Assembly: GCA_026986785.1 (NCBI GenBank)
Contig: JALSNW010000015.1
Span: 62,001-126,000, forward strand
Length of the DNA: 64,000 bases
Direction of reading: 5' to 3'
Source of the DNA: Deltaproteobacteria bacterium
GTDB lineage: Bacteria; Desulfobacterota; Dissulfuribacteria; Dissulfuribacterales; QOAL01
Shown: positions 20,004-39,724 of the stretch, piece after piece
How positions within the stretch are numbered: the first letter of the stretch is position 1
Layout of the letters: every line of letters begins with the position of its first letter
Notes under the pieces: generated by a model
What the model was told of the DNA's origin: nothing
The model's input: only the letters and a program-made list of their open reading frames with translations
Database searches by the model: none
Position numbers and translations under genes: made by a program

Positions 20004-20306
20004 ATGGCACGTCCGCCAAAATGTAGGATAGTGGATAGAGAGCCCACAGTAACCTATTTTAAGCCCCGTGGTGTTCCTCTACGTGACTTGGATGAGGTTA
20101 CCCTGACCGTAGAGGGGGCTGAGGCCCTGCGACTCAGCGAGATAGAAGGCCTGGACCAGGATTCCGCTGCAGAGCGGATGGGGATATCGAGACAGACCTT
20201 CGGTCGGATATTGGCAGATGCCAGGAGGACTGTGGCAAGGGCTGTCGTAGAGGGGCTTGGCCTGAGGATAGAAGGCGGACACTACAAACTGGCTCCCAGG
20301 AATTAG
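20004..20306 (+). CDS. DUF134 (UPF0251) DNA-binding protein
   Basis: 100 residues. It begins MARPPKCRIVDREPTVTYFKPRG, the usual DUF134 start, and contains a sigma-70 region 4-like helix-turn-helix (SAAERMGISRQTFGRILADARR). Family members often sit beside DUF5320 and FeMo-cofactor-type small proteins in anaerobes. Here it is in a group with hisC and a macrodomain gene, while a DUF5320 gene lies at 39.7 kb. AAGGGGG about 9-10 bp upstream supports the ATG at 20004. Confidence 0.9.
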   Translation: MARPPKCRIVDREPTVTYFKPRGVPLRDLDEVTLTVEGAEALRLSEIEGLDQDSAAERMGISRQTFGRILADARRTVARAVVEGLGLRIEGGHYKLAPRN

Positions 20307-39679: not shown

Positions 39680-39724
39680 TTGCTTTTTAGTCTTATGCTC
39701 ATTATATTGTGGGCATAAGACTAA
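39680..39724 (+). promoter_or_regulatory. Promoter with overlapping 12-bp inverted repeat (operator) for DUF5320
   Basis: TTGCTT (39680-39685), a 17-bp spacer and TATATT (39703-39708). A perfect inverted repeat, TTAGTCTTATGC (39687-39698) with GCATAAGACTAA (39713-39724), spans the spacer, the -10 and the probable transcription start. The half-site centres are 26 bp apart. It is well placed for a dimeric repressor. Confidence 0.65.

Follow-up and report, generated by a model that had tools for sequence, protein, structure and literature searches.

Why does the promoter of a gene encoding a DUF5320 protein carry a long inverted repeat across its -10 region, and which protein would read it? The gene lies in a 64,000-nucleotide stretch of DNA, analysed here as a whole and referred to as the window, which also encodes a DUF134 protein. 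The relevant features are as follows.

39680..39685, + strand: -35-like hexamer TTGCTT; its TTG is kept 16-17 bp from TATATT in aligned family promoters
39687..39702, + strand: candidate operator 1, TTAGTCTTATGCTCAT, which takes up the spacer between -35 and -10 (family promoter comparison)
39703..39708, + strand: -10 hexamer TATATT, at the centre of the inverted repeat (family promoter alignment)
39709..39724, + strand: candidate operator 2, GTGGGCATAAGACTAA, absent in three of 14 family promoters (G014, G018 and G005)
39687..39724, no strand: the inverted repeat as first described, with perfect 12-bp arms around a 14-bp loop
39746..40039, + strand: DUF5320 gene, 97 aa, the proposed controlled gene (PF17253, E 6.4e-17)
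20004..20306, + strand: DUF134 gene, 100 aa, the proposed binder, with helix SRQTFGR (PF02001, E 1.3e-22)

The repeat was first described in an initial annotation of the window, and its two perfectly complementary 12-bp arms are indeed present: TTAGTCTTATGC (39687-39698) and GCATAAGACTAA (39713-39724) enclose the 14-bp loop TCATTATATTGTGG and end 21 bp before the DUF5320 ATG. The start given there, 39680, belongs to the -35 side, as the arms begin at 39687. The annotation had also called it the longest palindrome at a promoter, and none of the other perfect inverted repeats with loops of 3-20 in the 64-kb window is as long. Shuffling by a first-order Markov model yields a mean of 0.12 repeats per window with arms of at least 12, so the repeat by itself is not significant; it is taken as real because it is conserved in family genomes. 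The perfect half-site has no other occurrence in its own 2.59-Mb genome, where the DUF5320 gene is likewise the single match to its family.

The repeat was further said to cover the spacer, the -10 and the probable start region of the DUF5320 promoter, and this is what is seen at the sigma70-like promoter TTGCTT-17-TATATT. The promoter was read by eye; a promoter-consensus scan does not list it, TTGCTT matching TTGACA at three of six positions. In relatives, the -35 reads TTGATT, TTGCAT or TTGTTT.

Conservation of the promoter within the window's family

Of 60 genomes, 17 encode a relative of DUF5320, the window's own among them. Conservation upstream of orthologues had been set beforehand as the test of the repeat, and within the window's taxonomic family it is present: all 12 of these genomes that belong to it share the promoter block CTTGATTTTTGTCTTATGCTCATTATATT...GCATAAGCTC. 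A sequence model of this block matches strongly at a single place in each of 14 family genomes out of 19 (E <=3.1e-6, the next best being 1.1e-3), and all 14 copies precede DUF5320 or its remnant. The model was built from 12 of the 14 positive genomes; the other two, G013 and G002, were new to it, and here the motif lies before a shorter DUF5320-like gene and before a remnant with a stop after 12 codons, respectively. The spacer and the bases downstream of the promoter, which are normally free, are conserved down to ~45% protein identity, and the left arm together with GCTCATTAT persists where the right arm is lost (G014, G018, G005). Genus g2 (G004, G008) has a more distant DUF5320 with the compact palindrome TTGAGCAAATGATCAA at -34; the three g5 genomes lack both a DUF5320 match and a strong motif.

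Two groups of weaker matches were set aside as coincidental. In genus g4, those ahead of tlyA/mrp-like genes (E ~1e-3 to 1e-2) fall in the lysine-rich start of a gene on the opposite strand, and right-half matches in g5 (L106, L107) fall in the start of a gidA-like gene. The remnant in G002, a genome of the same genus, was also noted for itself, as its promoter motif is intact although the gene has been cut to 12 codons (contig C120; L105 and L140).

DUF5320 genes had been assigned to metal-cofactor clusters. Outside the family they do have NifX-like and Mrp-like neighbours, but none of these occur within the family, where DUF5320 is either solitary or preceded by a DUF89-like gene (gene names taken from the sequences).

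A common palindrome upstream of DUF134 genes

In other phyla, the family model finds faint matches near DUF5320 genes, readable as a compact palindrome. The operator consensus adopted here is TTATGAGCATATGCTCATAA, with the 16-bp core ATGAGCATATGCTCAT, and the putative window operator is, by sequence comparison, a degenerate form of it. The annotation had suggested looking for the half-site at other DUF5320 and DUF134 genes, and the palindrome was recovered at both. With up to three mismatches, ATGAGCATATGCTCAT gives 24 matches in 21 of 64 DUF5320 loci of other taxa, compared with 1-2 in Markov controls, counts that are not independent because the family-model matches had suggested ATGAGCATATGCTCAT. 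Most of the 24 lie directly before DUF134, and others precede DUF5320, an Mrp-like ATPase or a PAS-domain gene (names read from sequence).

Three further analyses used loci not selected on the consensus. Among 297 genomes of the phylum, exact ATGAGCATATGCTCAT occurs in 11 places: five are copies of one element, two are coding, and the remaining four all lie just upstream of DUF134. In the phylum set of DUF134 loci, 15 of 29 (three of them from one genus, of which the dyad count kept one) have an upstream match of at least 12/16, at -22 to -48, compared with 2.9% of random stretches. De novo dyads, sought without any consensus in 27 DUF134 upstream regions, comprise TTATG-N10-CATAA (11 of 27) and TGAGC-N4-GCTCA and TATGA-N8-TCATA (8 each), with at most 4 in coding stretches; taken together, the three dyads yield TTATGAGCATATGCTCATAA, the same palindrome. 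In a second set of DUF134 genes, drawn from the same loci as the DUF5320-neighbourhood scan, 20 of 34 have a match of at least 12/16, compared with 1.8% of random stretches; both random controls may contain true sites.

The palindrome thus recurs shortly before DUF134 genes in the phylum at large, and it extends to Bacteroidota and one archaeal contig. In the latter (L081, Aenigmatarchaeota), divergent DUF134 and DUF5320 genes have in common the intergenic palindrome ATTAGCATATGCACAT at ~2896, so the arrangement extends to archaea. Elsewhere, two divergent DUF134 paralogues (L034) are separated by an intergenic region with three palindromes (890, 993 and 1046). The multicopy element seen in the exact scan is TTATGAGCATATGCTCATAATGGCG, present five times in G308 (L182, L188-L191), each ~80-95 bases from a contig end; it is a repeated, probably mobile, element in which the exact palindrome occurs by coincidence.

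Two candidate operators flank the -10 hexamer

The description as a single palindrome with a 14-bp loop gives way to a reading in which the -10 is flanked by two operators of 16 bp each. The layout in the window is TTGCTT-T-TTAGTCTTATGCTCAT-TATATT-GTGGGCATAAGACTAA, in which the -10 hexamer is the exact 6-bp gap between the two sites and the operator centres are 22 bp apart, or about two helical turns. The inner half-sites, ATGAGC and GTGGGC, correspond to the consensus, GTGGGC differing at one outer base, whereas the outer halves have diverged and form each other's complement, which produces the perfect 12-bp repeat.

The window sites match ATGAGCATATGCTCAT at only 11/16 and 9/16 positions, compared with up to 14/16 in genus g4, and in view of these poor matches the case for candidate operators is one that rests on the relatives. 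Across the 14 family promoters, operator 1 matches at 9-14/16, and its inner half, GCTCAT, is found in 12 of 12 aligned rows, a single T/C change excepted. Operator 2 takes the forms ATGAGCATAAGCCAAT and ATGAGCATAAGCCCAA (13/16) in two genomes of the same genus. Scored as a pair, the operators reach at least 22/32 in nine of 14 family promoters and in none of 2800 Markov controls; the window pair scores 20/32, a value reached by 1.6% of Markov controls.

Each of the two positions is also occupied at other loci, where the boxes were again read by eye. The operator fills the -35/-10 spacer in L040 (TTGACT-T-operator-TATATT), L069 and L077; in L054 and L183 it comes immediately after the -10 (TATATT-operator). 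These five are single-position examples, whereas both positions are filled in the window promoter. A nearby second site of 10-12/16 lies at +26, +34 or +35 in L032, L074, L040 and L069.

The DUF134 protein and its recognition helix

The initial annotation had suggested DUF134 as a possible repressor. The protein in the window is a full-length member of PF02001, a family that we take to be also named UPF0251 and COG1342, and its relatives' own promoters carry the palindrome. It falls just under the cut-off for Sigma70_r4_2 (E 2.3e-5), and its structure model (pLDDT 89) contains an HTH with DeoR and SigR region 4 as the best PDB neighbours in Foldseek (probability 1.0, E ~0.08). On this model, DUF134 is predicted to be a sigma-region-4/DeoR-like HTH protein. 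Recognition helix and fold resemble those of Sigma-70 region 4 and DeoR/SorC-type HTH domains, but the match is partial: in DUF134 the HTH is bordered on either side by additional strands, and this small protein would work by itself as a repressor. Unlike many DUF134 proteins, the window's lacks an operator of its own and, at 100 aa, the CxxC/Cys-rich tail common elsewhere. The initial annotation had considered a metal- or redox-responsive repressor; no metal-binding motif is visible in this protein.

Differences in the recognition helix, S-R-x-T-F-x-R (residues 62-68), go together with differences in the half-site before the gene that encodes it. Of 60 DUF134 rows compared, 37 have a site above threshold and 23 have no recognizable site; the second DUF134 set contributed the 28 of its 34 genes with a usable start. 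G-R helices go with ATGAGC or ATGGGC (16 sites), S/T-R with ATGAAC (7), A-R with ATGAGA (6) and G-N with ATTGGC (4), while H-R (ATTGAC) and W-R (ATGTGC) are represented by one site each. The rule fits 35 of the 37 sites, the exceptions being the G-R rows L028 and L035. The mutual information between helix and site was reached by none of 20000 permutations, which ignore kinship. Even within one genome (G128), two paralogues (loci L187 and L207) differ accordingly, FSR occurring with GAAC and FGR with GAGC.

For the window helix, SRQTFGR, the rule predicts ATGRGC, as found at DUF5320 (ATGAGC, GTGGGC), though the rule has exceptions; in the family genomes G011 and G017, operator 2 is ATTGGC despite a G-R helix. 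In 12 DUF134 loci examined later, the palindrome is present in five, and the expected half-site is exact for one of three G-R helices: QTFGR has ATGGGC as expected, and two ATFGR proteins are one base off. L239 and L245 add further half-site variants. The remaining later loci, five DUF134 genes of the GTVQR/GTIQR type and two others, have no site. Throughout this subclass (L242-L244, L246, L247, L217, L219, L220), no upstream site exceeds the threshold, and these proteins may lack autoregulation or recognize a different sequence. In L245 (G060), where the helix is SPATFCR, near-identical palindromes of the type ATGAAATATATTTCAT lie at both -90 and -37.

Proposed mechanism and alternative explanations

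The analysis supports regulation through a site that overlaps the DUF5320 promoter. As for the regulator, the operator at DUF134 genes and the co-variation of helix and operator make DUF134 the best candidate, and its suggested role as repressor is well supported by them. Judged from sequence, the inverted repeat is probably a pair of 16-bp DUF134 operators through which DUF5320 would be kept repressed until a signal releases DUF134. One DUF134 dimer would occupy each operator, both on the same face of the DNA, and the dimers would keep RNA polymerase off the -10 region; with polymerase blocked, DUF5320 would be repressed, and repression would end on release of DUF134 by the signal. Conservation, the consensus, its location ahead of DUF134 genes and the joint variation of helix and operator are computed results, whereas binding by the window's DUF134, its binding as dimers, cooperativity and repression are what we infer.

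A different regulator, such as an ArsR/SmtB-type or other metal sensor, could instead control both DUF134 and DUF5320, making DUF134 a target. We take the palindrome to be similar to ArsR-type operators, which speaks for such a regulator, as do the DUF134 genes of the window's family that lack the palindrome and the DUF5320 promoters that bear it with no DUF134 nearby. However, the half-site tracks the DUF134 recognition helix, including in two paralogues of one genome, and the other regulator would have to be present in Desulfobacterota, Bacteroidota and archaea and to have changed in step. Moreover, in the loci read, DUF134 is the only HTH gene that recurs beside the sites; a single locus, L084, has an FNR-like gene (names assigned from the sequences). 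We therefore regard this explanation as unlikely.

That the repeat is instead an RNA hairpin in the DUF5320 leader, serving as an attenuator or stability element, is hardly to be expected, although the stem of 12 bp is perfect. At five of ten pairs both sides have changed, and slid partners pair worse, but 74 to 326 of 500 column shuffles reach the observed pair measures, which is no clear excess, and RNAalifold predicts no pair. The right arm is missing in three of 14 family promoters, and no terminator-like site is listed at the repeat. With the -10 at 39703-39708, transcription would also start inside the right arm, so that the stem would lie outside the transcript of this promoter. A chance repeat in a strong conserved promoter that has no regulator is very unlikely as well. 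The 0.12 repeats expected per shuffled window leave some room for it, and -35 and -10 alone could be kept for strength, but this accounts neither for the conservation of spacer and downstream bases to ~45% protein identity nor for the match of both arms to an operator defined on unrelated genes.

Relation to known systems

The ORP (orange protein) operons of Desulfovibrio vulgaris contain Mrp/NifX-type genes of anaerobes and offer a related gene neighbourhood; their promoters are sigma54-dependent and activated (PMC6345978). The DUF5320 promoter differs in being sigma70-like, with candidate operators around the -10. Repressors of the TetR or LexA type bind palindromic operators over the -35/-10, whereas in the DUF5320 promoter two 16-bp sites are separated by 6 bp that coincide exactly with the -10 hexamer. 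The open-access papers searched yielded no study of a DUF134 operator and no function for the family. An HTH repressor with a palindromic operator is of a known kind, and DUF134 is a family with no assigned function.

DUF134, which is widespread in anaerobic bacteria and archaea, would gain a testable function, a target sequence and a specificity code, and the equally obscure DUF5320 becomes linked to it. A defined operator also opens the questions of the signal sensed by DUF134 and of the role of the NifX/Mrp/DUF5320 clusters.

Extent of the regulon

Within the window's family, DUF134 directly follows a hisC-like gene in 18 of 18 genomes, and none of these 18 loci has an operator upstream, compared with about half of relatives elsewhere. 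The autoregulation suggested elsewhere would thus be absent here, leaving DUF5320 as the one clear target. DUF134 is present in 18 of 19 family genomes, including three that lack DUF5320 and the motif, and so must have other jobs there; at this frequency, co-occurrence is uninformative as a test of the link.

In the window's own genome, the family model finds nothing else above background, the next match (E 0.03) being the same site on the other strand and the following one reaching 0.11. A palindrome scan of this genome gives 113 sites with three mismatches; those with two all lie inside ORFs (8/8), as in L226, where the site at 1228-1243 falls in the ORF 315-1427 (locus positions).

More generally, we lean towards a picture in which DUF134 proteins are small, often autoregulating repressors of bacteria and archaea, in which two helix residues set the half-site (G-R, ATGRGC; S/T-R, ATGAAC; A-R, ATGAGA; G-N, ATTGGC). 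They would control genes for DUF5320, NifX-like and Mrp-like cofactor carriers, a regulon that in the window's family may have shrunk to the double operator at DUF5320. On another contig of the same genome (C31, ~1310; L230), a NifX/Mrp-like cluster includes an FmdB-like gene whose start codon is overlapped by a 13/16 match to the palindrome.
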